Shown: in pieces, positions 9,560-26,339 of the stretch
Layout of the letters: the number at the start of each line of letters is the position of its first letter
Position numbering within the stretch: the first letter of the stretch is position 1
Source of the DNA: a virus
IMG/VR virus record: IMGVR_UViG_3300009537_000101
Span: 1 to 31,758 of that record
Strand: one strand, 5' to 3'
DNA: 31,758 bases
Position numbers and translations under genes: made by a program
Notes under the pieces: model-generated
Seen by the model: only the letters and a program-made list of their open reading frames with translations
Told to the model about the DNA's origin: nothing
Database searches by the model: none

Positions 9560-9590
9560 AGTTTAGTTGCCCCCAAACTACAGTTGTCAG
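9560..9590 (-). promoter_or_regulatory. Leftward operon promoter region with AACTGTAGTT operator
   Basis: On the minus strand, a -35-like CTGACA (9585-9590) overlaps the decamer AACTGTAGTT (9576-9585). A weak -10-like TAAACT at 9560-9565 would need a 19-base spacer, with transcription starting within a few bases of the ATG at 9550. The decamer match is clear; the hexamers are poor. Confidence 0.45.
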
Positions 9591-9620
9591 TTTATCACAG
9601 AGTTTGATTTCGGTCAAGCA

Positions 9621-9652
9621 GTCGAGTCTAAATTTAGACTCCGTTGACATAA
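9621..9652. repeat. 32-base element with 18-bp perfect palindrome, copy 1 (inverted relative to copy 2)
   Basis: Contains the perfect palindrome GAGTCTAAATTTAGACTC at 9624-9641, flanked by GTC and CGTTGACATAA. The whole 32 bases is the exact reverse complement of 25823-25854. Here it lies directly upstream of, and overlaps, the -35 of the late promoter. I found no third copy by eye. Confidence 0.9.
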
Positions 9653-9671
9653 CTATAGTTCCTGCTATGAT
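9644..9671 (+). promoter_or_regulatory. Late operon promoter with AACTATAGTT operator, leaderless start
   Basis: TTGACA 9644-9649, 16-base spacer, TATGAT 9666-9671. The palindrome AACTATAGTT occupies 9651-9660 within the spacer. The ATG at 9678 lies six bases after the -10, where transcription should start, and no ribosome site fits. The -35 also overlaps the 32-base palindromic element. Confidence 0.7.
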
Positions 9672-9677
9672 AGACCT

Positions 9678-10190
9678 ATGTCAACAGATGGATACGGCGA
9701 GTATGGGCGCAATGTTATCCAGGCCGCCGAAGAAATATTTGTTCAATCTAATATGTCTCTGCGCGAATTTTGTCGCCAGAGCGAGCGACTTGTGGGCAGG
9801 CCCCTTGATTACGAGCGGATGCTTAAGTTGGCCCAACGCCTGAATTGGACGACCAAGCAGGCCGCTCATAAAGCCGAAAGCGGCGGTCCCGATATAGACC
9901 ATGAGATACAGACAATACGCCGCATCGTTTACGAGCAGATTGTCTTGTCGTCTCAGCGCGGCCTGGTCATTACCGGCGAGGTCGAGATAGGTCTTGTCCA
10001 GGCGGCCTTAACCGGCCTGGATGTAACCGTGCATCAACTCAATCCGCAAGGGCCTGACCCACAACTGGTCAACAGCTATATGAACCTGCTCGCCAAATCG
10101 AATTACACGCCCACCACCACCATCTCGGCCAAGACGCCTCTGGAAAAAGCGCAGGACATCATTCGGGAAGAGATGGAAAATGCAGACTGA
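9678..10190 (+). CDS. Candidate terminase small subunit
   Basis: A 170-residue protein immediately upstream of the large terminase, overlapping it by 11 bases. Such a position and size are usual for the small subunit, which recognises phage DNA and regulates the large one. The N-terminal half holds two helical segments that could form a helix-turn-helix (SLREFCRQSERLVGRPLDYERMLKLAQRLNWTTKQAAHK). The central part (QTIRRIVYEQIVLSSQRGLVITGEVEIGLVQAALTGLD) is suited to ring oligomerisation. The tail is Thr-rich and helical. It is the first gene of the late operon and appears leaderless. The assignment rests mostly on position. Confidence 0.6.
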   Translation: MSTDGYGEYGRNVIQAAEEIFVQSNMSLREFCRQSERLVGRPLDYERMLKLAQRLNWTTKQAAHKAESGGPDIDHEIQTIRRIVYEQIVLSSQRGLVITGEVEIGLVQAALTGLDVTVHQLNPQGPDPQLVNSYMNLLAKSNYTPTTTISAKTPLEKAQDIIREEMENAD

Positions 10191-12006
10191 CATCCCCCTG
10201 GAAGAGTGGCAAATCCGCGAGATTGCCCGTTGCATGAAGTCGCCCGAATACTACATCGAGACATTTGGCTGGCTGGAGCAAAAAGCATCAGCCGGGGTTT
10301 CCGAGAGTTCGGGTATCATCCCCTTTCAACTTGGCAGTCGTCCACCGACCGAAGAAGAGATTGATAAGCGGGATGTGCCGCCCGAAGCCCAATTCTGGTT
10401 TCAGCGCCAAATCCTGCGATGGCTGCGCGGTAAAGAGGACGTTCTGGCCTACAAAGCCCGACGTGTTGGCTGTAGCTGGATTGCCTGCGCCTATGCCGCC
10501 TGGCTCATTACCTTTCACAAAGGGGTTAAGGTCGTCCTTGTCAGCCGGAAGGAAGCCGAAGCCAAAAAGATGTTAGGCAAGGTCAAGTTCATACTCAGCA
10601 ATCTGGCCTATCACGACAACGACAACCTACGCAAAGCAACAAAAGCCGATTGGCTTAAGCCCCACATTGAATACAGCAACCAGCTCTCGATGGCTGTTGG
10701 CTGGCGCAACGACGCCGGGGACGTAACCATGCTCTCAGAGATAGAGAGCGTAACCACTACTGACGACAGCGCCAGGGGCGACGATGCCACATTCATTGTC
10801 TTTGACGAACTGGCCTTTTACCAATCGCCTGACGAAACCTGGTCGTCGGCCACCAAATCCATGACGCGAGGCGGTCACTGGATGGCTATCTCGACGGCCC
10901 AGAATATCGGCGACGTTTTCCATAGGTTGGTCTCTAAGGCCCAGTTAGCCGAAGCCGGTAAACTGGAAGAGCCGCTTGGCTATCGTTACACCGGCTTCAT
11001 TCACTGGTCGGAAGCCGGTATGACCGAGGCCCAGATAGAACGAGCGTCGGAAGGCGACACTCAAGACAAGCGCGACCGGGAATGGGAAGGCAAGTTCATC
11101 GCCCCCGGTATGTCGGTCTTTGACCCAACACATCTGGCGGCTTGCTATAAGCCGCTCAAGGAATACCCTGAGATAGCCGCGCAGCTGGTAGATTACAGCG
11201 TCAAAGTTAAGCAAGGCAAGGGCGCGGTTATGTACTTTTCGGGGGTTGACACGATTAAGGGTAATGTCCGCAAAAAGTCCAAAGAGAAGGACTGGAATAG
11301 CTGGACTTCTCTGACGGCCAATAACATTCAGGCTTGCCATCACTACAACCAATTCCCAATTAGCAAGTGGGCCGGTAAAACCGTTGACAACGTGCGCGGC
11401 GGCCTGGTCGAGGTCGAAGGCGAGACAACCAAGCTGCACCGCGAATTTCCAGGTCCATGCTACATCGAGAACGAGGGGCCTGGCTTGACCGTAGTTAATA
11501 ACCATCGCCCCCCGCGTGACAGCTTTAGCCAGGTCATCTCTTGGGATATGAAGTCCAAGCACAAAGGCGAAGCCATACGCCGCTTGCAACTCAAGATTGA
11601 AAGCCACACTATCACCATCACCGACTGGTGGACTTACCAGTGCATGATGGTCTTTCAGTATGGCACCACCACCGACAGCTATGACGCCCCGGCCGGCTTT
11701 CAGGCTGACCCGGTTATCTCACTTGCTTTGGCTTCTTATGCCGTTGACGAGTACAGCGCTTTGCAGATTGTGTGGGGTACATCCGTCCAGACCGAACAAA
11801 GCGGCCTGGATATTCTCTTTCCCGACAACGAGCTAGAGCTACCGACCGCGCCGCCACTGCTTGACATTCGGCCTGAGTATGCTAGAATAGACTCAATTGG
11901 ACCTCAGTTGCCAAACGTGCCAAACGACATGGCCGTAAAATATCTGATTGGCGTTGAGGACGAAAATCTACAAAAATATCTTTCCGGGGGCAACGGCAGG
12001 AAGTAG
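10180..12006 (+). CDS. terL: Terminase large subunit
   Basis: A 608-residue DNA-packaging motor. The ATPase half has a deviant Walker A KARRVGCSW at residues 92-100, Walker B TFIVFDEL at 204-211 and the coupling motif STA at 238-240. The nuclease half has a first metal-binding Asp in MYFSGVDTIKG (D357) and a late Asp in FQADPVISLALASYA near 500. It should pump DNA into the procapsid through the portal encoded at 19127 and cut it. Length is usual for the family. The long spacing between TerL and portal, filled with structural and membrane genes, is unusual. The start overlaps the upstream gene. Confidence 0.92.
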   Translation: MQTDIPLEEWQIREIARCMKSPEYYIETFGWLEQKASAGVSESSGIIPFQLGSRPPTEEEIDKRDVPPEAQFWFQRQILRWLRGKEDVLAYKARRVGCSWIACAYAAWLITFHKGVKVVLVSRKEAEAKKMLGKVKFILSNLAYHDNDNLRKATKADWLKPHIEYSNQLSMAVGWRNDAGDVTMLSEIESVTTTDDSARGDDATFIVFDELAFYQSPDETWSSATKSMTRGGHWMAISTAQNIGDVFHRLVSKAQLAEAGKLEEPLGYRYTGFIHWSEAGMTEAQIERASEGDTQDKRDREWEGKFIAPGMSVFDPTHLAACYKPLKEYPEIAAQLVDYSVKVKQGKGAVMYFSGVDTIKGNVRKKSKEKDWNSWTSLTANNIQACHHYNQFPISKWAGKTVDNVRGGLVEVEGETTKLHREFPGPCYIENEGPGLTVVNNHRPPRDSFSQVISWDMKSKHKGEAIRRLQLKIESHTITITDWWTYQCMMVFQYGTTTDSYDAPAGFQADPVISLALASYAVDEYSALQIVWGTSVQTEQSGLDILFPDNELELPTAPPLLDIRPEYARIDSIGPQLPNVPNDMAVKYLIGVEDENLQKYLSGGNGRK

Positions 12007-12011
12007 GCCCG

Positions 12012-12275
12012 ATGCCCCTACCCTCAAACATTCAACCTAAACTTATCAGCCAGTCCAGGACAATCCGTTTTGCCGCGCTGAAGCCCATCCTGTTGCCACT
12101 CACGTTTCTGGTTGTCCAATGGCTGGCTCAGACGTTGGATTTACAGGCCGATGATAAAACAGTCCAAACGATAGCTGAGGCTGTAGTAACGGCCATACCG
12201 TTTGCTATAGCTGAGATTTGGCTGCGCTTTGTGACAGTTGCCCCGGTGGTGATCTCACAGCCTGAGAGCGAATAA
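12012..12275 (+). CDS. Small two-span membrane protein, holin candidate
   Basis: An 87-residue protein with a polar, basic N-terminus (IQPKLISQSRTIRFAALK), a membrane helix at about residues 25-41 (PILLPLTFLVVQWLAQT), a polar link LQADDKTVQ, and a second helix at about 53-75 (IAEAVVTAIPFAIAEIWLRFV), with a short acidic tail. Size, topology and position next to the terminase fit a class II holin, which would open the inner membrane at lysis. No endolysin lies nearby, so this is a guess from shape. The gene starts five bases after TerL. Confidence 0.6.
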   Translation: MPLPSNIQPKLISQSRTIRFAALKPILLPLTFLVVQWLAQTLDLQADDKTVQTIAEAVVTAIPFAIAEIWLRFVTVAPVVISQPESE

Positions 12276-12358
12276 TGTCCAGAATTTTGTATATGAATAA
12301 AACAATTTTTTTAGGGGCAATTACGCCAGGTAGTTCTATCTCCTGGCAATATAGATAA
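12275..12358 (+). CDS. Possible 27-residue peptide
   Basis: The ATG overlaps the stop of the membrane gene before it (TAATG) and the frame reads MSRILYMNKTIFLGAITPGSSISWQYR to TAA. The DNA around 12325-12347 also forms a hairpin (GCCAGG/CCTGGC). A further small hairpin, CGGC/GCCG, lies at 12363-12377 just before the next ribosome site. It may be a peptide, or leader structure without coding. Confidence 0.3.
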   Translation: MSRILYMNKTIFLGAITPGSSISWQYR

Positions 12359-12390
12359 GCTACGGCGAATTTTGCCGGAAAGGTAGTACC

Positions 12391-12924
12391 ATGAGAGAGT
12401 ATAAACGTTTAACAATTCTACCAGAAGTATTTCAGAGAAACTGGATGGCCCGCCTTGAACCTGCTGACCCTAATCCCAACGGTGCATTTCGGCTGGTCGA
12501 GTGTGTACCAATTACCGGGTCAGGCGACCTGAGATTAGTTGTGATGGTCGTTGATGAGGACGGATTCCCAATTCCAAACGTGCAGGTAGCATTTAGCTAT
12601 GACACGGCTCAGCAATTTACTGTGTCAGAAGATTTCACCTGGAGTCCACCGAGCTACCTGGCGGATGTATTTCCAACGAAAGGTTCCGGCGAAATAGAAC
12701 ACATCGCCGGTTCAACGGTTAAAAAGGGGCAGCCGGGCGGCGTCACCGTATTTATTTTAGAGAGAAACTATTCCAGCGATTATGTGACCGGCGCTGGCGT
12801 TTTATCCAACCATACCGGGATGAGAATGACATTTCAACTACAGAGACCCGGTGTAGTAACTATCGTTGATAGGCTACACAATCTCGAACAACGATTGACG
12901 GTTTTGGAAGATGCGCGATCTTAA
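12391..12924 (+). CDS. Structural-type protein: beta domain plus C-terminal coiled coil
   Basis: A 177-residue protein. Residues 1-60 are strand-rich. The central DLRLVVMVVDEDGFPIPNVQVAFSYDTAQQFTVSEDFTWSPP resembles a carboxypeptidase-regulatory or Ig-like sandwich, as found in virion and adhesion proteins. Then comes GMRMTFQLQRPGVVTIVDRLHNLEQRLTVLEDA, a short strand followed by a coiled coil able to trimerise. GAAAGG precedes the ATG. The C-terminal module is repeated in the small gene at 13093. A fibre or baseplate decoration role is plausible but not shown. Confidence 0.6.
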   Translation: MREYKRLTILPEVFQRNWMARLEPADPNPNGAFRLVECVPITGSGDLRLVVMVVDEDGFPIPNVQVAFSYDTAQQFTVSEDFTWSPPSYLADVFPTKGSGEIEHIAGSTVKKGQPGGVTVFILERNYSSDYVTGAGVLSNHTGMRMTFQLQRPGVVTIVDRLHNLEQRLTVLEDARS

Positions 12925-13096
12925 CAGTTGCCGGGGCATAATGCTGGCCTTGTTTTACACTATAATTTTCTGGCTGTTTGTGGCTTTAGTGTATCTGGTT
13001 GGTTGGCCTGTCGTCCTGGCGGGTCTGGTTGCGGGTTTATTAGTTGTCTGGTTCAGCTATTTGTTGACGCTGAGACGTACACGGATTTGGAAATGA
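12911..13096 (+). CDS. Small two-span membrane protein
   Basis: A 61-residue protein (a second possible start is M11 at 12941) with hydrophobic segments at about 12-29 (LALFYTIIFWLFVALVYL) and 31-50 (GWPVVLAGLVAGLLVVWFSYLL), then a basic C-terminus TLRRTRIWK. It overlaps the previous gene by 14 bases and ends in ATGA with the next. It could be a second holin-type protein or an anchor. A longer frame shifted by two bases, starting at 12928, is not credible at its N-terminus. Confidence 0.55.
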   Translation: MRDLNSCRGIMLALFYTIIFWLFVALVYLVGWPVVLAGLVAGLLVVWFSYLLTLRRTRIWK

Positions 13097-13221
13097 TGGT
13101 GATCGCATATTACCTGATCTTGCACCTGACGTTTCAGTGGCAGCGTCCTGGAGTTACATCTTTGCACGAACGTTTGACGGCTATCGAAGAAAGTCTTGGG
13201 AGACCGGAGACGAGAGATTGA
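13093..13221 (+). CDS. 42-residue coiled-coil peptide related to the end of the 12391 gene
   Basis: Starts in an ATGA overlap and reads MMVIAYYLILHLTFQWQRPGV followed by TSLHERLTAIEESLGRPETRD. The segment TFQWQRPGV...RLTAIE matches TFQLQRPGV...RLTVLE at the end of the gene at 12391-12924, so it looks like a duplicated C-terminal trimerisation module, either as its own gene or as the remnant of a larger copy. An N-terminal extension in the same frame (from 12928) is antisense-like noise from the membrane gene. Function unknown. Confidence 0.45.
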   Translation: MMVIAYYLILHLTFQWQRPGVTSLHERLTAIEESLGRPETRD

Positions 13222-13612
13222 CGAATATGGCAATATCGGCCTGTTGATTATTGCGGCAACTGGCGCTTTGTGGGCGACCTTTAAAGTTGTCATTCCCGAG
13301 TTCTTTCGCTGGTGGACAGCCTATAGAGTGGACCAAGAGGAACACCGGCAATTATTGGAACAGTCCGACCATAAATTAACAGGGATGGAGCGACTAAGCG
13401 AAATCAACCGGCTGGCCTACCTGGAGGACCAACTGACGATGATTGCTTCTGAGAGCCAGTCTCAACTGGACCGGTCTAATGAATTTGGCCGTAGCGTCGT
13501 TCAGGCTGAGTTGACCGAGCTACGTTCAATCCTGACCGACGTAAATAGTAAGTTATCATTGCTTATCAGGATAGTTGAAGAGGTTTATGATAGAAGCGCT
13601 GTTAAGGAATAA
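13196..13612 (+). CDS. Membrane-anchored coiled-coil protein
   Basis: A protein of up to 138 residues. After a basic N-terminus comes one hydrophobic segment (GLLIIAATGALWATFKVVIP, about residues 15-34), then a long charged helix with heptad leucines to the end (YRVDQEEHRQLLEQSDHKLTGMERLSEINRLAYLEDQL... LTELRSILTDVNSKLSLLIRIVEEV). The start is TTG at 13196 and overlaps the gene before it; ribosome support is modest. A single span plus a periplasmic or cytoplasmic coiled coil resembles spanin or holin accessory shapes, but no lipobox or signal cleavage site is seen. Confidence 0.6.
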   Translation: MGDRRREIDEYGNIGLLIIAATGALWATFKVVIPEFFRWWTAYRVDQEEHRQLLEQSDHKLTGMERLSEINRLAYLEDQLTMIASESQSQLDRSNEFGRSVVQAELTELRSILTDVNSKLSLLIRIVEEVYDRSAVKE

Positions 13613-13691
13613 AACATTCCTGATTATACTGGCCGAACCTCTGGCCGAACTAATACGAAATGAGATTTACAAAATTGTTCATATTCGTTGA
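13587..13691 (+). CDS. Possible 34-residue peptide
   Basis: The ATG at 13587 follows GAAGAGG at a short distance and overlaps the end of the coiled-coil gene. The frame reads MIEALLRNKTFLIILAEPLAELIRNEIYKIVHIR to TGA at 13689-13691, overlapping the start of the next gene. It is amphipathic rather than fully hydrophobic. It fills an otherwise empty 47-base gap, which supports it slightly. Confidence 0.38.
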   Translation: MIEALLRNKTFLIILAEPLAELIRNEIYKIVHIR

Positions 13692-14025
13692 GCATCCCTG
13701 GATGCTATACTTGATTTCGGCCAACAACATATATCATGCCCTGTTCTGGTCATTTTTGGCCTGTATAATGACGATTAGTCTTTTTAATGGTGAGAACGGG
13801 ATTACGCGCAATCTGGCTATCGTTTTCGCGGTATTTGCCCTGGATAAAGTTGTTGGCCTGATGTTTGTAATAAAGGTGGTAGATAGTGAAATATTGCTGA
13901 TATGGGGTGTGGTCCAGACTACGTTGCTGTCGGTTTTTATGTCTTTGGTTATAATACAGTATATTAAAACGGCTTTCCCTGTTATCAAAAAGAAAATAAA
14001 GGACAGTTATGGCGACTCTCTCTGA
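13660..14025 (+). CDS. Multi-span membrane protein
   Basis: A 121-residue protein with hydrophobic stretches near residues 13-21, 27-43, 52-71 and 78-101, so three or four membrane helices, and a basic C-terminal tail IKKKIKDSYGDSL. Codon use is more A/T-rich than in the terminase and glycan genes. It may be a holin-like or superinfection-type membrane protein; nothing specific is recognised. The ribosome site is weak (no clear SD), so translation may depend on overlap with the small frame at 13587. Confidence 0.55.
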   Translation: MRFTKLFIFVEHPWMLYLISANNIYHALFWSFLACIMTISLFNGENGITRNLAIVFAVFALDKVVGLMFVIKVVDSEILLIWGVVQTTLLSVFMSLVIIQYIKTAFPVIKKKIKDSYGDSL

Positions 14026-14470
14026 CAGATTCAAGCCCGGTTTTCTAAAAGTTCGGGACATCGTTAAGGCGGCTCAGAGCAGGCAACCTTTGGAGGACGC
14101 TCTGGTAAAAAACTTACGAGAGCTAAAAGCACATGCTGACGAGATAATACTTGCCATTCATGAGTCCAATGCGGCCCTGGGTCATTTGCGGGAAATATCG
14201 GTATCTGAATTGGACGCGGCTTTCAATGTCGCTCAAATAGCAACGGTGGCCGTCAATATGGATGAAATTTACCGATTGGACAAGAGCGAGATGGAGAAGC
14301 ACATCCTGTTAGCCAATGAACCTGTATTGGCTTACGGCCTGTCGCTAATGCTGGAAAAAATCAGCACAGAGGAACTAGGGCGACTGTTGGCCCAGGCTTC
14401 ACCCGATGTTCTGGGCAAATTGTATCAGGCGGTGGATGAGGCATGGGAGCAGGGCCAGGATGAGTCATAG
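14009..14470 (+). CDS. Helical hypothetical protein
   Basis: A 153-residue soluble, mostly helical protein: LEDALVKNLRELKAHADEIILAIHESNAALGHLREISVSELDAAFNVAQIATVAVNMDEI, and later YGLSLMLEKISTEELGRLLAQASPDVLGKLYQAVDEAWEQ. AAAGGACAG precedes the ATG. It begins inside the last 17 bases of the membrane gene. The repeated helical pairs suggest a bundle. No family recognised, though its place among virion and membrane genes hints at a structural or lysis-related part. Confidence 0.6.
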   Translation: MATLSDRFKPGFLKVRDIVKAAQSRQPLEDALVKNLRELKAHADEIILAIHESNAALGHLREISVSELDAAFNVAQIATVAVNMDEIYRLDKSEMEKHILLANEPVLAYGLSLMLEKISTEELGRLLAQASPDVLGKLYQAVDEAWEQGQDES

Positions 14471-14555
14471 CAATATTTTTATTATTGTTTCGCTGATGGT
14501 GTTAATCATGAGCATTTGTACGTTTATTATTTTTGTAATCGCCTTTTTGATTTAA
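14460..14555 (+). CDS. 31-residue single-span membrane peptide
   Basis: Starts 11 bases inside the previous gene's end and reads MSHSNIFIIVSLMVLIMSICTFIIFVIAFLI, almost wholly hydrophobic. CCAGGA is directly before the ATG, which favours coupled translation. It is the third membrane-type mini-protein between TerL and the fibre genes. Function unknown. Confidence 0.5.
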   Translation: MSHSNIFIIVSLMVLIMSICTFIIFVIAFLI

Positions 14556-14597
14556 GGAAATTTCTATCGTTATTAGTGCTGTTATAAGGATTAGATT

Positions 14598-15074
14598 ATG
14601 GCCGGTGGTCCGATAAATCCAAACAATGCGTATCCTGTTCACTCAACCTGTTTTCCAGACCTAACGCCTACTCATCGAGAGCGAGTGTTAGCCGTTTCAG
14701 GAACGATAGACGGAACGGCTGATGTAGATTGGGAATTGACATTTGACATTCCCAATGTGCTGCCGAGTGGAACACCCACATTCAAACTCAGAAGTCAGGC
14801 AAATTCAACGTCGCAAGTTGTACGGGTCGAGATTAGTTGGGTAGCCGTTGCCCGGACTACGGCTTACGGCACGACCAAAACATCTGAGGGTGAGCAAAAC
14901 ATCACTTTGTCTGGCACAGCTAATACACCGGTTGAAACATCTATCACATTGGATGCAACAACTGTTCCGGCCGCAGGGCAGCGATTGGAAGTAAACATAC
15001 GTTTTCACGGAACAGATGCAGCCTGGACAGCAAACGTTAAATCGCTCTATAAATTGTCTTTAGGTTATGTGTAA
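14598..15074 (+). CDS. Beta-sandwich structural-type protein
   Basis: A 158-residue protein with alternating polar/hydrophobic strands and few charged helices: TIDGTADVDWELTFDIPNVLPSGTPTFKLRSQANSTSQVVRVEISWVAVA, then NITLSGTANTPVETSITLDATTVPAAGQRLEVNIRFHG. This is the composition of a jelly-roll or Ig-like virion domain, similar to phage proteins that cap or decorate fibres. AAGGA lies about eight bases upstream. It is first in the fibre gene block. No exact family recognised. Confidence 0.6.
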   Translation: MAGGPINPNNAYPVHSTCFPDLTPTHRERVLAVSGTIDGTADVDWELTFDIPNVLPSGTPTFKLRSQANSTSQVVRVEISWVAVARTTAYGTTKTSEGEQNITLSGTANTPVETSITLDATTVPAAGQRLEVNIRFHGTDAAWTANVKSLYKLSLGYV

Positions 15075-15086
15075 GGGAGTTATCAA

Positions 15087-15383
15087 ATGGCACTGACCAC
15101 AGAACAAAAACAAAAGGCGGCCACCGCTTTAGCGCAGATTATTTTCAACGATGGGGAGATTACCGCTCACTCGGATGGTGATGTTTGTATCAACGTTATC
15201 CAGAGCATCGAGACAGCGATGACAACAGTTATCTCAACTATTCCCGGCGGCTGGCAATCCAAAACTATTTTGCAGGCTATTGTTGATAATATGCCCGAAC
15301 CTTTTCAGACGGCTTCGACGGCCCAGCAGAAGGCAGATGCTTTTAAGATTTGGGCTGACCTGAAAGCGGGTCGAATTATATAA
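15087..15383 (+). CDS. Small hypothetical protein in fibre block
   Basis: A 98-residue protein, helical at both ends (TTEQKQKAATALAQIIFNDGEITAHSDGDVCINVIQSIETAMTTVI and TAQQKADAFKIWADLKAGRII). GGGAG precedes the ATG. The next gene starts directly at its stop codon with no gap, so the two are likely produced together. It could be a chaperone or a structural adaptor for the adjacent lectin-like protein; nothing in the sequence decides. Confidence 0.6.
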   Translation: MALTTEQKQKAATALAQIIFNDGEITAHSDGDVCINVIQSIETAMTTVISTIPGGWQSKTILQAIVDNMPEPFQTASTAQQKADAFKIWADLKAGRII

Positions 15384-16163
15384 ATGGGCCGCTTGTTTGT
15401 ACCTGCATCCAGTCAGTATCTTAATATAAACAGCGCGGTGATTACCAGCGGCTATCCCTGGACATTATCAGCTTGGTTTAATTCGGATGATGCTACACTG
15501 GCGCAGGTTATCTTGATGATTCTGTACGACCCGATTGCCACAGGGTTCTATCATCGTATATGGATGCACCTTGCGGGAAATGTGGCAGGCGACCCTCTCA
15601 GGGGAGGCGTTTCGCAAGCGGGTAGTCATTATGAGGTCACTACTACTACCGGCTGGACTGCCGGTGTGTGGAATCACGCCTGTTTTGTTGGCGCATCAGC
15701 TACCAGTCGCAGCATTTTTCTGAATGGCGGCGGCAAGGCAACGACTACGGTCAGCGCCACCCCCGGCACGATGGGTATAACTCATATTAGTGCGGATTGG
15801 AATTTAGGCAATAAATTTTCAGGGATGCTTGGCGAAATTGCAGTCTGGAGCGTTGCTCTGACTGATGAGGAAGTATCAGCATTAGCCGCCAAGGTTCCGG
15901 CGTCTGAAATCCGACCCGACAGCATTAAAGCCTATTGGCCTTTGTACGGTATACATTCGCCGGAAGTGGACCAAAAGGCCAACGTCTATCCAATGACTCT
16001 TAATGGTTCGCCTACTCGGAGTGACCACGCGCCGGTTATTTGGAGACCGGATTGGTTAACAAGTTTAGAAACACTAGAACCTGCGGGGGTGGGCATAGTC
16101 GGTCCATTGTTAGGCGGACGATTGGTAAAACGAGGCGTGTTGCAAGGCAGGCTAGTTAGATGA
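15384..16163 (+). CDS. LamG/concanavalin-A-like lectin-domain structural protein
   Basis: A 259-residue protein. Residues 1-195 follow the LamG/laminin-G-like jelly roll: SQYLNINSAVITSGYPWTLSAWFNSDD, W...... GVWNHACFVGASATSRSIFLNGG, and GMLGEIAVWSVALTDEEVSALA, the hallmark ending of these lectin domains. The remaining 60 residues (LEPAGVGIVGPLLGGRLVKRGVLQGRLVR) are Gly/Leu/Arg-rich. Phages use this fold in tail tip and fibre proteins to bind host glycans. It is followed, with an ATGA overlap, by the large fibre gene, so it likely contributes to host attachment. Confidence 0.8.
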   Translation: MGRLFVPASSQYLNINSAVITSGYPWTLSAWFNSDDATLAQVILMILYDPIATGFYHRIWMHLAGNVAGDPLRGGVSQAGSHYEVTTTTGWTAGVWNHACFVGASATSRSIFLNGGGKATTTVSATPGTMGITHISADWNLGNKFSGMLGEIAVWSVALTDEEVSALAAKVPASEIRPDSIKAYWPLYGIHSPEVDQKANVYPMTLNGSPTRSDHAPVIWRPDWLTSLETLEPAGVGIVGPLLGGRLVKRGVLQGRLVR

Positions 16164-18646: not shown

Positions 18647-18819
18647 TGCGCGACATTGTGCGATGGGTTCTTCACTGGTTGTCGGCTTTACCAGAGGTAA
18701 CATCTCACTTTCTGGAGGCAACGGTCTATAGTGGCAATATATCGGGAAAGGTCGAGAGCGGGAATACAACCGGCGAGGTATCCAGTGGCAATACCACCGG
18801 AAAGGTCAGAGGAGTCTAA
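18646..18819 (+). CDS. 57-residue protein with three nine-residue repeats
   Basis: The ATG overlaps the fibre stop (TGATG) and the stop overlaps the next start (TAATG), so it is fully embedded in the operon. Residues 1-27 are a helical, partly hydrophobic lead (RDIVRWVLHWLSALPEVTSHFLEATV). Residues 29-55 are three repeats of SGN-x-x-G-x-V-x: SGNISGKVE, SGNTTGEVS, SGNTTGKVR, each 27 bases long (18730-18810). Short Gly/Val repeats of this sort can make beta-solenoid turns. It may be a small fibre-tip or baseplate component. No family recognised. Confidence 0.55.
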   Translation: MRDIVRWVLHWLSALPEVTSHFLEATVYSGNISGKVESGNTTGEVSSGNTTGKVRGV

Positions 18820-19130
18820 TGTCTCTACCCAGAGCAATCAAGGGGGCGCGAAATACGGGCTTGACCATAACCTGGCAACATCCTGATGGAACAGCCCACA
18901 ATTTGACCGGCGCAACTCTGACCGGCGTGATTAAAAACGATGCCGGAACGTCCAGGGCCATTGACGGCACGTTGGCCCTATCCGACGCGGCTAACGGCGT
19001 CTTTACCTGGACTTATGGCGCAATTGATGTGGGAACCGCAGGTACATTCCTGGTCCAGTTCAAGGCTACTATCGGCGGACAGTATGACCTGACCTACTCT
19101 GAGAAGTGGGTGGTCGAGGCAGCCTTATGA
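18819..19130 (+). CDS. BppU-like baseplate/upper fibre domain protein
   Basis: A 103-residue protein. The pattern LTITWQHPDGTAHNLTGATLTGVIKNDAGTSRAIDGTLALSDAANGVFTWTYGAIDVGTAGTFLVQFKATIGGQYDLTYSEKWVV fits the N-terminal BppU/baseplate-upper-protein type fold: paired strands, DG in a turn, G.y.v.f....g......E.w.v. In phages this domain joins receptor-binding proteins to the baseplate. It directly follows the fibre genes and starts in a TAATG overlap with the repeat peptide, consistent with a shared assembly. The family call is by pattern. Confidence 0.65.
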   Translation: MSLPRAIKGARNTGLTITWQHPDGTAHNLTGATLTGVIKNDAGTSRAIDGTLALSDAANGVFTWTYGAIDVGTAGTFLVQFKATIGGQYDLTYSEKWVVEAAL

Positions 19131-20815
19131 CATGCTTAAGATGCGGTAAATCGCTCAATCGGGGTAAGAAGTACTGTTCCCGCGATTGCTCAAACAAACA
19201 CAAAGTCGAATTGCAAAATCAACAGATTTCGGTTCGCTCTCATGTCCCCCGCGAGCTGGAACAAGCTGTCAAGTCCTACCTGCCCGATGACCAGGCCAAT
19301 CTAGTCCTGTCTGAGATGGCGATTGAGCTTGAGCAACGCCCCATCCAATTCCCCATTCGCCTCGAGCAATCCAGCCTGCGCGATATTGTGCTGTCAATGG
19401 AAGGCAGTCGGGACATGCGCCCCGGCTCTCGGCTGCGCTACGACATCATTGACCAGATGATACGCAGCGGGCCGGTGATGTTCGCCATCGAGATGAAGCG
19501 GGCGCAAGTAACTCGCGTCTTTAGCAAGGGTAGATACAAAGTAGTTTCACCTGACAAAGAGCTGGCCGAAGTCGCCACAGCCGCGCTGGACCTTATTTTG
19601 CCCAAGATGGCCAATGACTTTACTTGGTCAGCCTTTGCTTATGGCACATCATTCCAGGAAGAGGTCTGGGAATGGAAGAGCAAGTATCAACTGGGTCTGT
19701 CCAAATCCAAAGCCGCAAGCACAGAGTTCCTTGTCCCTAAAGTCCCGGCTTCGGTCAACCCCCGCAGCGTAGCCCATATTCGACGCGAGAAGGGCAGCCA
19801 GCGTTTTGATGGCTTTGCCCAACGTAGAAGTGATGGTATATTGCAGGACTTGATTAACGTAGATGCTCGTTCCGCGTTAGTTATTCCATTGAACGAACGC
19901 TTTGGTAATTTATGGGGCGAGAGCTTCCTTAAGACGCTCTACCTGTCCTGGCTATGGTACGAAATCGTCTTTAGAACAATGTTCCGATACATGGAACGAA
20001 TGGCTATGCCGGTTACGGTAGGCCGCGCCCCAAGCCGGGCAACCGTAACCATCGAAGGCTCAACCACGCCGGTACGGGCTATGGATCTGGCCTTGACTCT
20101 GGCTGGAAATGTAGCCAAGTCCAACGCGGTCGCCATCCCCTCGGACCGAGACGAGCAGGGCAACTATTTGTGGGATTTGGGCTACCTGTCTGCCGATGGC
20201 GGTCGGGTAGATATGTTTTTATCGGTGCTGGAATTTTTGAGCAACGATATGATTAAGTCGGCCCTGTTTGGCGAAAACACCGTTACCCGGCCTTCGGGTG
20301 GGGTGGGTAGTTACAATCAAGCCCAGATACATGCCGAAGCCTCGGCCTGGACAACCGAGATGCTGGCTATTCTCTTTTTGCATTACATCAACCTGTACTT
20401 TATGCCCGACTTCTCGCTTTACAATCGCGGCGAGAATGGCCCGCCGATTTACATGGTCACACAAGCCATTGACCAACAAGAGCGAGAGATGTTGATGAAG
20501 ATACTCAACACGGCGGGCAGCTCTGATGAAGGCAAAATCTTTTTTGAGATGCTGGATTGGCGCAGAATGGCCGAAACGGGTAATATTCCCGTTCTCAAAG
20601 AGAGCGAAGTCACCAAACGGCGGCAAGACCGCTTCGATGACAATATGGAACGGCAAAAGAAGCAGCAGGAAGTGATGAAAGAATTTGCTAAAGAGAACGA
20701 GCCGCCCCAGAACAATAACGGCCAACAGCCGCCAAGCAATCCGCAAGTTAAACAGGAAGATATTGACCGGCTGCCACTTATCTTAGGACCAAGCGAGTTA
20801 GAATATGTTGGATAA
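19127..20815 (+). CDS. Portal protein (DUF935-like) with N-terminal zinc finger
   Basis: A 562-residue protein from the ATG at 19127, which overlaps the previous stop. The body matches DUF935/phage-portal type proteins: SGPVMFAIEMKRAQVTR, WSAFAYGTSFQEEVWEW, then SALVIPLNERFGNLWGESFLKTLYLSWLWYEIVFRTMFRYMERMAMPV, and VEFL-like helices with ALFGENTVTRPSGGVGSYNQAQIHAEA. The last 60 residues are disordered and Gln/Pro-rich. Before it sits MTCLRCGKSLNRGKKYCSRDC with Cys 3, 6, 17 and 21, a CxxC-CxxxC zinc finger not usual for portals. The portal forms the ring through which TerL pumps DNA. It lies 7 kb from TerL. Confidence 0.85.
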   Translation: MTCLRCGKSLNRGKKYCSRDCSNKHKVELQNQQISVRSHVPRELEQAVKSYLPDDQANLVLSEMAIELEQRPIQFPIRLEQSSLRDIVLSMEGSRDMRPGSRLRYDIIDQMIRSGPVMFAIEMKRAQVTRVFSKGRYKVVSPDKELAEVATAALDLILPKMANDFTWSAFAYGTSFQEEVWEWKSKYQLGLSKSKAASTEFLVPKVPASVNPRSVAHIRREKGSQRFDGFAQRRSDGILQDLINVDARSALVIPLNERFGNLWGESFLKTLYLSWLWYEIVFRTMFRYMERMAMPVTVGRAPSRATVTIEGSTTPVRAMDLALTLAGNVAKSNAVAIPSDRDEQGNYLWDLGYLSADGGRVDMFLSVLEFLSNDMIKSALFGENTVTRPSGGVGSYNQAQIHAEASAWTTEMLAILFLHYINLYFMPDFSLYNRGENGPPIYMVTQAIDQQEREMLMKILNTAGSSDEGKIFFEMLDWRRMAETGNIPVLKESEVTKRRQDRFDDNMERQKKQQEVMKEFAKENEPPQNNNGQQPPSNPQVKQEDIDRLPLILGPSELEYVG

Positions 20816-21194
20816 AAACCTATTTCATCCTGACCTGTTTCAATTTGTGCGTGGTATTCCGGTCAAAAAGACCGAGATAGAACGCATCGAGCAGGAAGTT
20901 GGGGCGGTCCTATTTGACGAAAGCAAATTTACACGTTATAGTGATAGGGTCAATTGCGCTAAAGTCATTTTTGAGCTGGACCGGATTTTAGCCACAGTCC
21001 GCAAAAAGCTGGACTCGCCGGATTACTGGGGCGAAGTTGACATCGGTAATCCAAGTTACATCTTTGTACCAGCCCGCTTTGAGGGCTTTAGCACGAAACC
21101 AACCCCGGACAAGCCAGTAGGCATTGTGGGTTGGTTCGCCGTCAAGCGGCATTTCAAGGGGGCAAAACTTGACAAGGCTGGCCGTACTCTCTGA
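20805..21194 (+). CDS. Hypothetical protein after portal
   Basis: A 129-residue protein that starts in the last 11 bases of the portal gene. The N-terminal part is helical (KKTEIERIEQEVGAVLFDESKFTRYSDRVNCAKVIFELDRILATVRKKLD). The second half has strands (GNPSYIFVPARFEGFSTKPTPDKPVGIVGWFAVKRHFKGAKL). Position after the portal could suggest a head-completion or adaptor role, but there is no recognisable motif. The first glycosyltransferase starts inside its last 26 bases. Confidence 0.55.
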   Translation: MLDKNLFHPDLFQFVRGIPVKKTEIERIEQEVGAVLFDESKFTRYSDRVNCAKVIFELDRILATVRKKLDSPDYWGEVDIGNPSYIFVPARFEGFSTKPTPDKPVGIVGWFAVKRHFKGAKLDKAGRTL

Positions 21195-22500
21195 TAGTCC
21201 GGTTCTTCACACCGGCTTCGCCACCGTCATCCGGCCCATGCTGGATATCTGGCACGATTTAGGCTTTGAGATTTACGTCTATGGCTTTATGGATAGCCTG
21301 GGCGACCCCGAAGGTATCTTCCCTTATTCAATTCAACCCACCCCACCGATGGACGAACTAGGTCATCATACTTGCGGTTTTTTTTTGCGTAAGGTTAAAC
21401 CGGATGTTATCTTTATCTTGACCGACCCTGGCAATATCGCCCCCTACGCAGGCCAGATGTACGACACGGGCATTGCCGATTGGAAAAGAGACGGCCAAGA
21501 CTATCGTCCGCCTGTTGTGGTTTACACCCCCATCGAGAGCAGGCCTTCGCCGGTCTTGCATGGCGAAGGCCTGTATTTGGTTGAAGAGCTGGGCGGCAAG
21601 GTTGTCGTTTATTGTCAATCGGCTAAAGAGATGATTACCGACCAGTTTCCCGACTTGCGCCCGGACGTGGTTTTTCACGGACATGACCATGCGCCCTTTG
21701 CTCAGTTCAAGCCCGAAGAACGAAAGTTACTACGCCGTCTGGCTGGTCTGGACGATTATTTCATGGTGGGCAATGTGGGGGTCAACAAGCGCACCAAGGG
21801 TATCACCACCCTTATCTATGCCGCCGTCGAGCTACGCAAGATGAGGCTGGATGAAGGTATTAAATTCTATTGTCATACCAATCCCACCAAGTCCACAATG
21901 GACGGCTACCACCTACGCGACCTGACCAAGTACTATGGCGTAGCCGATATGTTTTTGTTCAAGCAGGAACTTCAATCGAGCTACTGGAAGGGCGTCCCCT
22001 ATGACAACGGAACACTGCAACAGTGTCTCGAAATTGGCGACAAAGTACCTGAGACGCCCGAAGGCCGGGGTTATTTGTGGGGCCACTTTGATTTAATTTC
22101 CAAGTACAATTGCTTTGACCTGTACGCCGATTGCAGCCAGATAGAGGGCTGGGGACTGGGCATGGCCGAAGCAATGGCCTGCGGCGTACCTTGCTTGAGC
22201 GTTAACGATAACCATGTGCGGCAAGAGATACACAGCGCCGGCGCTTATATGATGCAGCCCAGTCCTTTTCGGATGTGGGACACCTGGCACACCGATATGC
22301 GACTGGTTCACATTGACCCATTGGTAGTAGCCGAACATATCCTGATGTTCAAAAATGACGCCGAATTACGCAAAGCCTATTCTAAAAAAGGCTATGACTT
22401 TGCCCACGAGTACAAGTGGGCTGACTCGGCTAACCAGATGGCAAAAATTATCAACGACACTTACGAAAGGCACTTGAAAATATGGCAAATGTCCTTGTAA
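21169..22500 (+). CDS. GT-B fold glycosyltransferase (GT4-like)
   Basis: A 444-residue enzyme opening the glycan cassette. I place the start at TTG 21169 because AAGGGGG lies just upstream and residues LTRLAVLSDSPVLHTGFATVIRPMLD fit the first strand and Gly-loop of this fold; an upstream codon at 21124 would lengthen the overlap. The C-terminal nucleotide-binding half has FMVGNVGVNKRTKGITTLIYA and QIEGWGLGMAEAMACGVPCLSV, with the EX7E pair of GT4 enzymes. It likely transfers a sugar from a nucleotide donor to an acceptor in a surface polysaccharide or virion glycan. Donor and acceptor cannot be read. Confidence 0.82.
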   Translation: MTRLAVLSDSPVLHTGFATVIRPMLDIWHDLGFEIYVYGFMDSLGDPEGIFPYSIQPTPPMDELGHHTCGFFLRKVKPDVIFILTDPGNIAPYAGQMYDTGIADWKRDGQDYRPPVVVYTPIESRPSPVLHGEGLYLVEELGGKVVVYCQSAKEMITDQFPDLRPDVVFHGHDHAPFAQFKPEERKLLRRLAGLDDYFMVGNVGVNKRTKGITTLIYAAVELRKMRLDEGIKFYCHTNPTKSTMDGYHLRDLTKYYGVADMFLFKQELQSSYWKGVPYDNGTLQQCLEIGDKVPETPEGRGYLWGHFDLISKYNCFDLYADCSQIEGWGLGMAEAMACGVPCLSVNDNHVRQEIHSAGAYMMQPSPFRMWDTWHTDMRLVHIDPLVVAEHILMFKNDAELRKAYSKKGYDFAHEYKWADSANQMAKIINDTYERHLKIWQMSL

Positions 22501-23486
22501 CCGGCGCGGCCGGATTTATTGCCCACTGGCTAGTTCGGGAATTACTCGAGAGCGGACATGGCGTTCTAGGCATCGATGACCTGTCCGGTGGCAAACACAA
22601 CGCCGAATCCGTAGCAGAGCAGTGCCGCTTCTTTGACCTGCGCGATGCGGACAAGGCCGGACAGGTCATCGCCAGTTTCAAGCCCGATTATCTCTTTCAC
22701 CTGGCGGCCAACGCCAGAGAAGGCGCATCCTTCTATCAGCCGCGCAGTATCGTTACTCGCAACCTGCAAGCCTATATCAATGTCCTCGTCCCGGCTATCA
22801 AGCACGGTCTTAAACGGGTAATTCTATTCTCGTCTATCTCGGTCTATGGCAAGCAGCCTGTTCCCTTTTCGGAAACAATACTACGCAAGCCGGTTGACCC
22901 CTACGGCCTGATGAAATCCACTATGGAACAGATGACCGAGATGCTGGCCGCCTGCCATGATTTCGAGTACATTATTCTCAGGCCGCACAACGTTTTTGGG
23001 CCAGGTCAGTGTCTATCCGACATTCACCGCAACGTCTTTGCGATTTGGATGAACCGCATTATGCGCGACGAACCGTTGCAAATCTATGGCGACGGTCAGC
23101 AGAAGCGGGCCTTTAGCTACATCGAGGACAGTCTGCCTTCTTACATGAGGGCCATGACCTGTAAACCGGACAAGATTTACAATATTGGCAGCGATATTCC
23201 CATACCAATTATTGACGCGGCTCACATGGTTACTTTGGTAATGGGCAAAGACCCTGACAAGTACCCCATCGAACATCTGCCTGGTCGTCACAAGGAAGTC
23301 GAGGTCGCCTATTCATCTATTGCCAAAGCGCAGGTACAACTTGGCTTGAAGCGACCGAGCAAGGATAGCTTCAAGACTGGCCTGGAGAAGATGGCAACTT
23401 GGGCTAAAGAGCAGGGGCCGCAGGACTGGGCTACGACTGACAAGCTGGAAATAACGAATGAAAAAACACCGGAGAACTGGCTATGA
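22482..23486 (+). CDS. NAD-dependent sugar epimerase/dehydratase (extended SDR)
   Basis: A 334-residue GalE-type enzyme. TGAAGFI at residues 7-13 is the NAD-binding Rossmann motif; SSISVYG at 117-123 and Y141-x-x-x-K145 (YGLMK) form the catalytic set of extended short-chain dehydrogenases. It would act on a nucleotide sugar, for example a UDP-sugar 4-epimerase or a dehydratase. The exact reaction cannot be told. Length is usual. It overlaps the upstream glycosyltransferase by 19 bases and the next one by ATGA, so it probably provides the donor for the cassette's transferases. Confidence 0.87.
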   Translation: MANVLVTGAAGFIAHWLVRELLESGHGVLGIDDLSGGKHNAESVAEQCRFFDLRDADKAGQVIASFKPDYLFHLAANAREGASFYQPRSIVTRNLQAYINVLVPAIKHGLKRVILFSSISVYGKQPVPFSETILRKPVDPYGLMKSTMEQMTEMLAACHDFEYIILRPHNVFGPGQCLSDIHRNVFAIWMNRIMRDEPLQIYGDGQQKRAFSYIEDSLPSYMRAMTCKPDKIYNIGSDIPIPIIDAAHMVTLVMGKDPDKYPIEHLPGRHKEVEVAYSSIAKAQVQLGLKRPSKDSFKTGLEKMATWAKEQGPQDWATTDKLEITNEKTPENWL

Positions 23487-24316
23487 AATCAATGGTTGTC
23501 GTAATTCCAATCATGGGCCGCTTGAACGACCTAAAGCCTTTTTGGGGACTGTTGCTCAACAACACCCTGCATGCTGACCTGTTTATCGTCTCGAATACCC
23601 CGCCTGACGTTCGAGAACAAGAGCAGGAAGAGCTGTTCTTCGCCAAGTATATTAAACCCCATTGGCAGGGAGATGTTCACTACTATCCGCAGGCTGATAA
23701 CATCGGCGTCATCGAAGCCATGCAGCTTGGGTACGAAAAAACCGACCACGAAATAGTTGCATATTTACATAATGACCTGTATATTTACGAGGAAGGTTGG
23801 GACACTGACGTTATCTATCAGTTCGAGACGCTAGATCAGCCGGGGCTGATCGGTTTCTTCGGCGGCGAAGGTATTCATTCCAATTCGGGCCGAAATGATG
23901 TCTGGTCTAACATGCTCGAAGCCGAGATACACGGCGGCCGCTTCGGTGCTTATGGCGAAGCCAAGGAAGTAGCCGTTCTGGATGGCATGGCCATGATAGC
24001 ATCGCGTGAGATGCTGGATGTGCGCGATGGCTTGGATACTGACTTCAAAATCCATCACTTCTATGACCTGGATTTGTCGCTGGAGAGTCTGGACAGGGGG
24101 TACAAGAACTACATTATCCCCATCGCTATCCATCACCACAGCGGCCAGACGGCTAATTACCCGGACTTTAACAGGTGGGCCAACAGGTACATGGATATGG
24201 ATGACCAACCTAACGATGGTCAAAACGCGATTTACTTAGCAAACAGGATGCGCTGGGTCAGAAAGTGGGTGGATAAATTGCCCTACCACGTATCGCAAGG
24301 CAAGTTTGGGGGCTAA
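23483..24316 (+). CDS. Glycosyltransferase family 2-like protein (GT-A)
   Basis: A 277-residue protein. VVVIPIMGRLNDLKPFWGLLL is the first Rossmann-like strand and helix, AYLHNDLYIYEEGW near residues 94-107 holds a D-x-D-like HND metal motif, and VAVLDGMAMIASREMLD and HFYDLDLSLE lie in the acceptor half, as in GT2 enzymes. No membrane helices. It probably adds a sugar to the glycan made by this cassette. ATGA overlap with the epimerase gene and 16 bases before the next gene. Confidence 0.8.
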   Translation: MKSMVVVIPIMGRLNDLKPFWGLLLNNTLHADLFIVSNTPPDVREQEQEELFFAKYIKPHWQGDVHYYPQADNIGVIEAMQLGYEKTDHEIVAYLHNDLYIYEEGWDTDVIYQFETLDQPGLIGFFGGEGIHSNSGRNDVWSNMLEAEIHGGRFGAYGEAKEVAVLDGMAMIASREMLDVRDGLDTDFKIHHFYDLDLSLESLDRGYKNYIIPIAIHHHSGQTANYPDFNRWANRYMDMDDQPNDGQNAIYLANRMRWVRKWVDKLPYHVSQGKFGG

Positions 24317-24331
24317 GGATGGCTATGATTT

Positions 24332-25171
24332 TTGAAGGTTATCATTCACAAGTTCAACGACTATGACCGGCGACGGTCAATTACCTTGGTTCCCCTGGGC
24401 GACATTCACATCGGGGCCGATGCTTGTAACGAAGGTCGGCTCAAGAACGTTATCAAAAGAATAGAAGATGACCCCAACTGCTTCTGGATTGGAATGGGAG
24501 ACTATGCGGATTTTATTCAGCGCAGCGACCCCCGCTTCAACGTTGGCGGCCTGGCCGACTGGATACAGATGGCCGACCTGGTTGACCTGTCCAGGGCGCA
24601 GCGTGACCGCTTTTTGGGCTTTATCAAGCCCATTGCCCATAAGTGTCTGGCTTTTTTGCAGGGCAATCATGAAACGTCCATTACCAGGCACTACGAGCGC
24701 AATGTCTACTACGAGATGACCATGGCCATCAGAGAGATGGGCGACCTGGACGACATTGCCCTTGATTACAACGGCTGGCTGGCTCTTAAGTTTTACGCAG
24801 GCAAAAAAGAGTCCAATACCGTCAGAATTTATCTGCATCACGGCTTTGTTGGCGGCAAGCTGGCTGGGGCCAAAGCCCTGAATATGCAGCGTATGTTGTG
24901 GGTCTTTGACGCCGATTTAATTCTAATGGGCCACTCGCACAATGTTGACATCTCGGCCCAGCAGGTGACAGGACTGAGCGATTATGGTAAAATTGTTGAA
25001 AAGCGACGAATTGGTGCCTATACCGGCACATTCCTATCGTCCTTCTCAGAAAGCGGCTCAACCTATGCCGAAGTTAAGGGCTACTTTCCACAACCTAACA
25101 GTGGAATTGAAGTCCAGATTGTCAGGCCCTTATCCCATGACTCAAGAATCGAAGTCACCAGTAGTATCTAA
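24332..25171 (+). CDS. Calcineurin-like metallophosphoesterase
   Basis: A 279-residue enzyme with the complete metal-binding set: GDIHIG at 23-28, GMGD at 54-57, GNHE at 111-114, HHG at 169-171 and GHSH at 200-203. These bind two metal ions and hydrolyse phosphodiesters or phosphomonoesters. The start is TTG, with AAGGA some 11 bases upstream. A competing short ATG frame (24319) is only 15 codons long. In a glycan cassette it may remove a phosphate from a sugar or lipid intermediate; alternatively it may be a DNA- or nucleotide-active phage enzyme. Confidence 0.85.
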   Translation: MKVIIHKFNDYDRRRSITLVPLGDIHIGADACNEGRLKNVIKRIEDDPNCFWIGMGDYADFIQRSDPRFNVGGLADWIQMADLVDLSRAQRDRFLGFIKPIAHKCLAFLQGNHETSITRHYERNVYYEMTMAIREMGDLDDIALDYNGWLALKFYAGKKESNTVRIYLHHGFVGGKLAGAKALNMQRMLWVFDADLILMGHSHNVDISAQQVTGLSDYGKIVEKRRIGAYTGTFLSSFSESGSTYAEVKGYFPQPNSGIEVQIVRPLSHDSRIEVTSSI

Positions 25172-25763
25172 ATACCCCACGCCCGCACCCCCTGTTAGAA
25201 TATTGCAAGACCCGGATGAAATTAGGGAACTTTTGACGATATTTAGAGCCATTAAGCCCATTCACATCCTTGAAATAGGTTCGTTTGCCGGGGGAACGTT
25301 GTGGTATTGGCTTTACTTCTCGCGCATATCCAGAGTCATGTCGCTGGATATGGTTATGACCGACGGGCAAAGCAGCAGCCAATTATCAGGTATGGCCAAG
25401 TGGCCCGATTGGGCGGCCAATTCCGGTAATGAGCTTATCACCTACCAGGGCGATTCAACCAGCAAAGAGGCCCTGCAATTTGTTAACGAATGGTTTCCTG
25501 ATGGAATTGATTTTATCTTTCTGGACGGCGGCCACGACTCCCAAACCGTGAGTAAGGATATTACCAACTACTACCCCCTGGTTAAGCCGGGCGGCGTCTT
25601 TGCCATGCACGATATTGCGGTGCCAGAACAGAACAGCGAAGGCATCGCCTGTCGCCAGGCTTGGCGCAGTATTCGCGGTTGGGGGAGAGACAGTTTAGAA
25701 ATAATTCATGGCGAGGGCGTCAGCAATGGCATTGGTCATGGAATAGGAGTGATTTATGTATAG
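25137..25763 (+). CDS. SAM-dependent methyltransferase (Methyltransf_24/CmcI-like)
   Basis: A 208-residue class I methyltransferase from the ATG at 25137 (upstream in-frame codons would lengthen overlap with the phosphoesterase). HILEIGSFAGGTLWYW at residues 43-58 is the SAM loop, DFIFLDGGHDSQTVSKDI at 125-142 follows, and VKPGGVFAMHDI at 149-160 carries the metal-binding-like end, the pattern of Methyltransf_24/cephalosporin hydroxylase-like enzymes common in polysaccharide clusters. It overlaps the previous gene by 35 bases. It likely O-methylates a sugar; the acceptor is inferred. Confidence 0.82.
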   Translation: MTQESKSPVVSKYPTPAPPVRILQDPDEIRELLTIFRAIKPIHILEIGSFAGGTLWYWLYFSRISRVMSLDMVMTDGQSSSQLSGMAKWPDWAANSGNELITYQGDSTSKEALQFVNEWFPDGIDFIFLDGGHDSQTVSKDITNYYPLVKPGGVFAMHDIAVPEQNSEGIACRQAWRSIRGWGRDSLEIIHGEGVSNGIGHGIGVIYV

Positions 25764-26094
25764 CAGGCGAAGTTTTCTAAAAAAGATTAGTCAAACCCTG
25801 ACTGCTTTGGCCAGTCTTAGCCTTATGTCAACGGAGTCTAAATTTAGACTCGACAAAGAAACACCCATCCCGGATTTAGCCAAGGGTAGTCCCCGTTCCT
25901 GGTCAACGCCCTTTGGTTGCAACGCTGCTTCTATCTGGCCTGATGACAGGCCCGGGGATATTGAAGCTGTTCATAGAATGTGGCTTGCCAAATATGGCGC
26001 CGACCTCGAGCTAAGCCCAAGGCAACGCAAATTAGTTGACGAAGCCTCGGCTAAAGTCGCTCAACGCCTACTCACAGATATATTTCGCTCATGA
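25756..26094 (+). CDS. Tat-signal exported protein carrying the 32-base palindromic element
   Basis: A 112-residue protein. SRRSFLKK at residues 3-10 is a textbook twin-arginine motif, followed by a short hydrophobic ISQTLTALASLSLM, so it should be exported folded. The mature part contains one Cys and ends in a helical region (SPRQRKLVDEASAKVAQRLLTDIF). Residues 23-33 (L-MSTESKFRLD) are encoded by the second copy of the 32-base palindromic element at 25823-25854, just after the signal sequence. It overlaps its neighbours by a few bases. Tat substrates are rare in phages. Function unknown. Confidence 0.65.
   Translation: MYSRRSFLKKISQTLTALASLSLMSTESKFRLDKETPIPDLAKGSPRSWSTPFGCNAASIWPDDRPGDIEAVHRMWLAKYGADLELSPRQRKLVDEASAKVAQRLLTDIFRS
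25823..25854. repeat. 32-base element with 18-bp perfect palindrome, copy 2 (inverted relative to copy 1)
   Basis: The palindrome GAGTCTAAATTTAGACTC is at 25834-25851; all 32 bases equal the reverse complement of 9621-9652. Here it lies inside a coding sequence and encodes MSTESKFRLD in frame. Identity over all 32 positions, including bases outside the palindrome, argues against coincidence. Confidence 0.9.
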
Positions 26095-26339
26095 CAAGCA
26101 TCGCCCAAAAGACCATCGGCCAGCTTATAGACGAACTGGTAACAACCAACGTCAAAGTTTATCACCTAATCGACGCCGAGATTGAAGCTCAGGAAGCCAA
26201 TGATTACGAAGAGGCAGGCAGGCTTGGCGAGAAAGTTATCAAACTAAACAAATCTCGCAATCAACTGATCGCAGCAATTGACGAATATTTCGGGCAATCA
26301 GATGCCCAACAGGTTAAACTTTATGGCAAGTTATCTTAG
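26091..26339 (+). CDS. Small helical hypothetical protein
   Basis: An 82-residue protein, all helix by pattern: IGQLIDELVTTNVKVYHLIDAEIEAQEANDYEEAGRLGEKVIKLNKSRNQLIAAIDEYFG. It starts in an ATGA overlap with the Tat-signal gene and the next gene starts inside its end. I looked for the DSL motif of an acyl carrier protein, which an FkbH-like enzyme nearby might need, and found none. Similar short helical proteins occur in phages; no function is known to me. Confidence 0.65.
   Translation: MTSIAQKTIGQLIDELVTTNVKVYHLIDAEIEAQEANDYEEAGRLGEKVIKLNKSRNQLIAAIDEYFGQSDAQQVKLYGKLS

Follow-up and report, generated by a model that had tools for sequence, protein, structure and literature searches.

We identified a 32-bp element that occurs twice, as exact inverted copies, in a phage genome fragment, with one copy flanked by promoter-like sequences and the other lying in frame within a coding region. 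Our preferred reading, to which we assign a probability of roughly one half, is that the element acts as a regulatory site at the DNA level, copy 1 serving as a dyad operator and copy 2 as a copied site for the same protein. The duplication is real, but it is a fairly ordinary regulatory feature.

Genome layout and relatives of the phage

The window analysed here is the whole of an IMG/VR virus record (31,758 bases), which is apparently a fragment, as an ORF runs off its right end. Leftward genes extend from 9550 to 4729 and rightward genes from 9678 to 31334, with an intergenic gap between 9550 and 9678. The rightward genes encode a terminase (PF03237), a lectin-like protein, a Mu-type portal (PF06074), glycosyltransferases, an epimerase and methyltransferases, while the leftward genes encode a VRR-NUC nuclease, an FtsK-like ATPase/translocase and a LexA-type DNA-binding-domain protein. 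The terminase genes are as follows:

9678..10190, + strand: first gene of the rightward operon, terS-like (putative terminase small subunit, by its position upstream of terL)
10180..12006, + strand: terminase large subunit (PF03237, 4e-8; phrog_2, 1.6e-20)

No close relative with usable similarity was found in IMG/VR (searched by TerL, portal, Tat-like ORF and epimerase) or in GTDB genomes (searched by the Tat-like ORF), in collection searches whose tools may omit records very near the window itself. An alignment-based TerL search returned only matches of 19-29% over part of the protein, with no other gene in common with the window. No Rfam families were detected in the window. Two terminator-like hairpins were observed at 4636-4730, between converging + and - operons; a promoter-like match at 4627 overlaps the first of them and is better taken as part of the terminator.

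An exact 32-bp inverted repeat

The two copies of the element are located as follows:

9621..9652, + strand: copy 1 of the 32-bp element, GTCGAGTCTAAATTTAGACTCCGTTGACATAA
25823..25854, - strand: copy 2 of the 32-bp element, inverted, coding for MSTESKFRLD in a + strand ORF

In a repeat search, positions 9621-9652 matched the reverse complement of 25823-25854 (100% complementary arms, 16,170 nt between them), whereas the runner-up inverted repeats in the window were either exact over 15-16 bp or matched at 78-94%. The longest exact inverted repeats in 20 Markov shuffles measured 14-24 nt, and the naive chance expectation of such a 32-bp pair was 2.7e-11. The original prediction of an exact inverted 32-base pair 16.2 kb apart, with matching non-palindromic flanks, was thus confirmed at 32/32 bases. 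The match stops sharply at both ends, with no similarity beyond the 32 bp: the left flanks differ between copy 1 (GGTCAAGCA) and the matching side of copy 2 (GTTTCTTT), as do the right flanks (CTATAGTT in copy 1 and GGCTAAGA in copy 2). No third copy of the 32-mer was found in the 31,758-base record at up to three mismatches.

The 18-bp palindrome within the element has its next best match in the window at 6 mismatches. Perfect palindromes of at least 18 bp were present in 17 of 100 shuffles, and a lone one is unremarkable; the signal is carried by the second copy with its identical flanks. An unrelated perfect 18-bp palindrome, CCCAAAGAATTCTTTGGG, lies at 26449-26466 inside a DUF5662 ORF. Palindromes of 6 bp are depleted 2.3-fold in the window (183 versus 417 expected), and the 18-bp palindrome persists nonetheless. 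GATC is scarce in the window as a whole (14 occurrences, 129 expected), and GAATC/GATTC is likewise depleted while GAGTC/GACTC is not. The depletion of GATC and of 6-bp palindromes suggests strong avoidance of restriction or methylation sites.

The original prediction had called for the 32-mer to be sought in related phages and host genomes, and this revealed no recurrence across IMG/VR, GTDB, phages and plasmids. The full 32-mer was not found in IMG/VR or in the phage or plasmid collections, and the 18-mer followed by TTGAC within 12 bp was not found in 84,980 GTDB species genomes. The 18-mer had one match in IMG/VR, in a contig from an unrelated phage (535-560), where a T run follows it and it forms the stem of an intrinsic terminator; this is a coincidence at about the chance level that we estimate for a collection of this size. 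A looser pattern, TCTAAATTTAGA-N3-8-TTGACAT, matched 15 stretches in IMG/VR (about 8 distinct sequences), in phages that had no gene similarity to this phage beyond a distant terminase, while IMG/VR yielded nothing for the promoter pattern TTGACAWAACTATAGTT-N5-6-TANNNT. No mention of the 12-bp core of the 32-mer was found in the literature searched.

Copy 1 and the divergent promoters

Copy 1 lies in the intergenic gap together with the following features:

9624..9641, no strand: 18-bp perfect palindrome GAGTCTAAATTTAGACTC, candidate dyad operator, between the -35 boxes of the divergent promoters
9644..9671, + strand: predicted rightward promoter PR, TTGACA-16-TATGAT (11/12, TG before the -10; promoter scan)
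9589..9617, - strand: predicted leftward promoter PL, TTGACC-17-TAAACT (9/12, TG before the -10), for the operon from 9550 to 4729

The palindrome is 2 bp from the PR -35 and 6 bp from the PL -35, and its centre falls at about -45.5 and about -50.5 from the PR and PL starts, respectively, which are predictions from the -10 positions. The claim that copy 1 overlaps a late promoter held up, with the -35 TTGACA (9644-9649) inside copy 1 and the -10 outside. Perfect -35 boxes paired with at least 5/6 of a -10 occurred 4 times in the window, PR among them, versus 0.2 in shuffles, in a consensus scan that is not proof of a promoter. The predicted PR start (about 9678) coincides with the ATG of the terS-like ORF, and the terS-like message is possibly leaderless. 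Since both predicted starts lie outside copy 1, copy 1 is outside both predicted transcripts; this, together with its position outside any plausible gene, argues against an RNA or protein role at copy 1. An RNA hairpin as the common function of both copies was rejected because copy 1 is outside both predicted transcripts.

The original prediction had listed four options for the element, namely a partition or centromere-like site, a repressor operator, a recombination site and a mobile palindrome. The position of copy 1 between PL and PR makes the repressor operator the best supported of these. The palindrome is not a regulon-wide motif, as the other strong promoters, at 3209 and 31331, lack it, and only copy 1 lies at a promoter. 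The promoter-like site at 31331-31359 has TTCCTGCTA in common with PR and is followed within 60 bp by a terminator-like hairpin (31388-31420), a combination that could possibly represent a small RNA or attenuator before the ORF running off the right end (31444-).

The proximity to terS also bears on a quite improbable alternative, that the element serves DNA processing, for example as a site for partition or packaging (pac/cos-like). Packaging sites are often located just upstream of terS, where copy 1 lies, and the leftward operon encodes an FtsK-like translocase. That protein is a candidate link at most, however, and a packaging site is normally single, so that a second one, within a gene and 16 kb distant, would send the cut to the wrong place. 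For the partition or centromere-like option, no ParA/ParB family was recognised among the scanned ORFs of the fragment. An XerCD dif-like reading of the CATAA/TTATGT edges was set aside, as by eye neither copy has a second arm at 6-bp spacing.

A second palindromic motif at promoters

A further palindromic motif was found beside copy 1:

9651..9660, no strand: AACTATAGTT palindrome in the PR spacer, second candidate operator
9576..9585, no strand: AACTACAGTT, one mismatch to AACTATAGTT, at the predicted PL start

The window has two exact AACTATAGTT sites, at 3216 and 9651, both in spacers of strong promoters. The 32-mer stops 2 bp into the site at 9651, which is why copy 2 lacks AACTATAGTT. 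As judged from these positions, promoter-associated dyads appear to be a habit of this phage, and the number of regulatory motifs in this region is probably two or more. If one operator serves more than one promoter, AACTATAGTT is a better candidate for it than the GAGTCTAAATTTAGACTC dyad, and as an operator in general it is no worse a candidate.

The site at 3216-3225 belongs to another pair of divergent promoters, whose -35 regions overlap (3209-3237 on the + strand and 3215-3188 on the - strand), where it lies in the + spacer, as in PR. A 16-bp exact inverted repeat (3241-3256 / 3301-3316) begins at about the predicted start of the 3209 promoter and forms a 5' leader stem of a methyltransferase-like gene (3327-4028).

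Copy 2 within the Tat-like ORF

Copy 2 is contained in the following ORF:

25756..26094, + strand: 112-aa ORF with a twin-arginine-like N-terminus (SRRSFLKK), AGGAG upstream

This Tat-like ORF begins MYSRRSFLKK and overlaps both the preceding and the following ORFs; no convincing family match and no homologue were found for it. Translation bore out the prediction that copy 2 codes for MSTESKFRLD in frame inside the Tat-signal gene, and the promoter scan detected no promoter-like site around copy 2. Frame-specific codon scores favour the same frame on either side of copy 2, so the contig is coherent through it. This coherence bears on the suggestion that the repeat is an assembly or amplification artefact, as might be suspected for a metagenomic contig represented here by a single assembly, with a repeat near k-mer length. 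Given that the ORF through copy 2 keeps its coding frame on either side, and that the -35 of copy 1 pairs at proper spacing with a -10 outside the repeat, we consider an artefact most improbable.

Removing exactly 32 bp from the Tat-like ORF in silico left 33 residues followed by a stop, while removing 30 or 33 bp kept the frame. A plain 32-bp insertion is therefore unlikely, as its removal gives a frameshift and an early stop, while copy 2 could have replaced a stretch of equal length or been inserted along with one additional base. The proposal of a mobile palindrome that had inserted into a coding region fared poorly, because such an element should recur elsewhere yet was not found in IMG/VR, GTDB, phages or plasmids, and a clean 32-bp insertion breaks the Tat frame.

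Copy 2 is, on the sequence evidence, most likely a copied second binding site, perhaps an elongation roadblock, or a neutral copy. In the neutral case copy 1 would still be an operator, but copy 2 would be a scar without function, left when template switching or patchy recombination duplicated the 32-bp segment into the ORF, and tolerated as the frame stays open. We view this account as possible but tentative. The sharp 32-bp ends with no similarity beyond them, the lack of a promoter at copy 2 and the absence of further copies are consistent with a scar, as is the codon usage of the copied stretch, which ranks low for the operon (8th percentile). This percentile is not extreme, however, and equally low scores occur elsewhere in the ORF. 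Furthermore, a clean 32-bp insertion would shift the frame, so that the copying must have come with a further base change or have replaced a segment of equal length, and there is zero divergence over the 32 bp, though recent copying accounts for that. A dyad operator would not require the 14 bp that the copies have in common beyond the palindrome, and plain copying fits these as well as function does.

Possible inversion of the intervening segment

Exact inverted repeats bounding a 16.2-kb segment could also be recombination sites, with the segment inverting as a phase-variation switch; inversion would give the Tat-like ORF another tail and cut the genes at 26091-31334 off from PR. The original prediction held that such an inversion would flip the block away from its promoter. 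The inverted isomer constructed in silico contradicts this, since either repeat provides an identical -35 and the -10 is part of the segment itself: an identical promoter (TTGACA-16-TATGAT, 11/12) is rebuilt before the terS-like gene, and the block stays on but points left, into the leftward operon. In addition, 32 bp is short for efficient general recombination, and no recombinase or transposase was recognised among the scanned ORFs of this fragmentary record. We therefore regard an inversion switch as improbable, and the check removes a tempting yet mechanically unsound phase-variation claim. A very improbable variant is an invertible or loop-forming pair that carries the late promoter's -35 and acts as a rerouting rather than an on/off switch, with the structural block transcribed but reversed, the glycosyl- and methyltransferase genes disconnected, and late transcription entering the leftward operon.

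Candidate regulators and proposed mechanism

Two proteins of the leftward operon are candidates for binding the dyad:

7466..7708, - strand: small stand-alone LexA-type DNA-binding-domain protein, no protease part (PF01726, E 2.8e-5, just above the gathering cut-off)
8314..8613, - strand: 99-aa winged-helix-like protein, weak second candidate (predicted structure)

The LexA-type protein is plausibly the best named candidate for binding the dyad, judging from its domain match; its TIGR00498 match is partial and below the cut-off, and its structure model, built without an alignment, was too poor for use. The 8314-8613 product may be a second winged-helix protein, on the basis of a predicted structure with a mean pLDDT of 68.5 and a TMq of about 0.57 to the LexA-DNA structure 3jsp, with no match at E < 0.001.

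Under the operator reading, a dimeric DNA-binding protein, probably phage-encoded and possibly of LexA type, would bind the palindrome GAGTCTAAATTTAGACTC at copy 1. Once bound, the protein would compete with RNA polymerase at the adjoining -35 of PR, the strong promoter of the terminase/structural genes, and its effect on the weaker PL could be either repression or assistance. Copy 2 would be a physical duplicate of this segment, together with its -35, placed in the Tat-like ORF of the operon that PR drives. That protein would be expected to bind there too, and transcription could then be slowed or blocked before it reaches the glycosyl- and methyltransferase genes downstream. We infer the binding itself, the identity of the regulator, the direction of regulation, the order in which the copies arose and the function of copy 2 from the arrangement described above. 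If both copies bind one regulator, the operon would be controlled at its start and again within coding sequence about 16 kb further downstream; few systems with such a layout are known. Taken together with the LexA-type protein, the GAGTCTAAATTTAGACTC dyad and the AACTATAGTT sites may offer a testable regulatory circuit in a phage for which the collections searched yielded no close relative.

Comparison with known systems

Copy 1 is arranged like the operators at divergent promoters of temperate phages, among them lambda OR (CI/Cro) and switches of the LexA and CI types: in both, a perfect dyad lies between divergent sigma70 promoters beside the -35 boxes. As in lambda-type switches, small putative HTH proteins are encoded in one of the two operons. 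Unlike those switches, however, the present region has a single dyad rather than multiple sites, it has candidate regulators, it splits a leftward operon from a terminase/structural operon, and lysogeny of this phage would be conjectural. Gin/Pin-type invertible segments are likewise bounded by short inverted repeats, but here no recombinase was recognised, one repeat lies in an unrelated ORF, and the promoter is regenerated on inversion.

For copy 2, the repressor-type protein C.Kpn2I provides a precedent as an intragenic elongation roadblock (PMC6237814). Both systems combine a site beside the -35 of a strong divergent promoter with a site in a coding region, with binding and roadblock being predictions in our case; in the C.Kpn2I restriction-modification locus, however, one site does both jobs, whereas here two sites lie 16 kb apart. 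Phage stoperators are intragenic or non-promoter repressor sites that stop elongation (PMC6550527, PMC9283540), and those of the cluster A mycobacteriophage L5 similarly repeat a promoter site at non-promoter genome positions. The L5 stoperators are asymmetric, 13-14 bp long, present in 20 to 30 copies per genome, mostly intergenic and oriented with transcription, whereas the element described here contains a palindrome and is present in two copies of opposite orientation, one of them in a gene, and thus falls outside the L5-type definition (PMC6550527).
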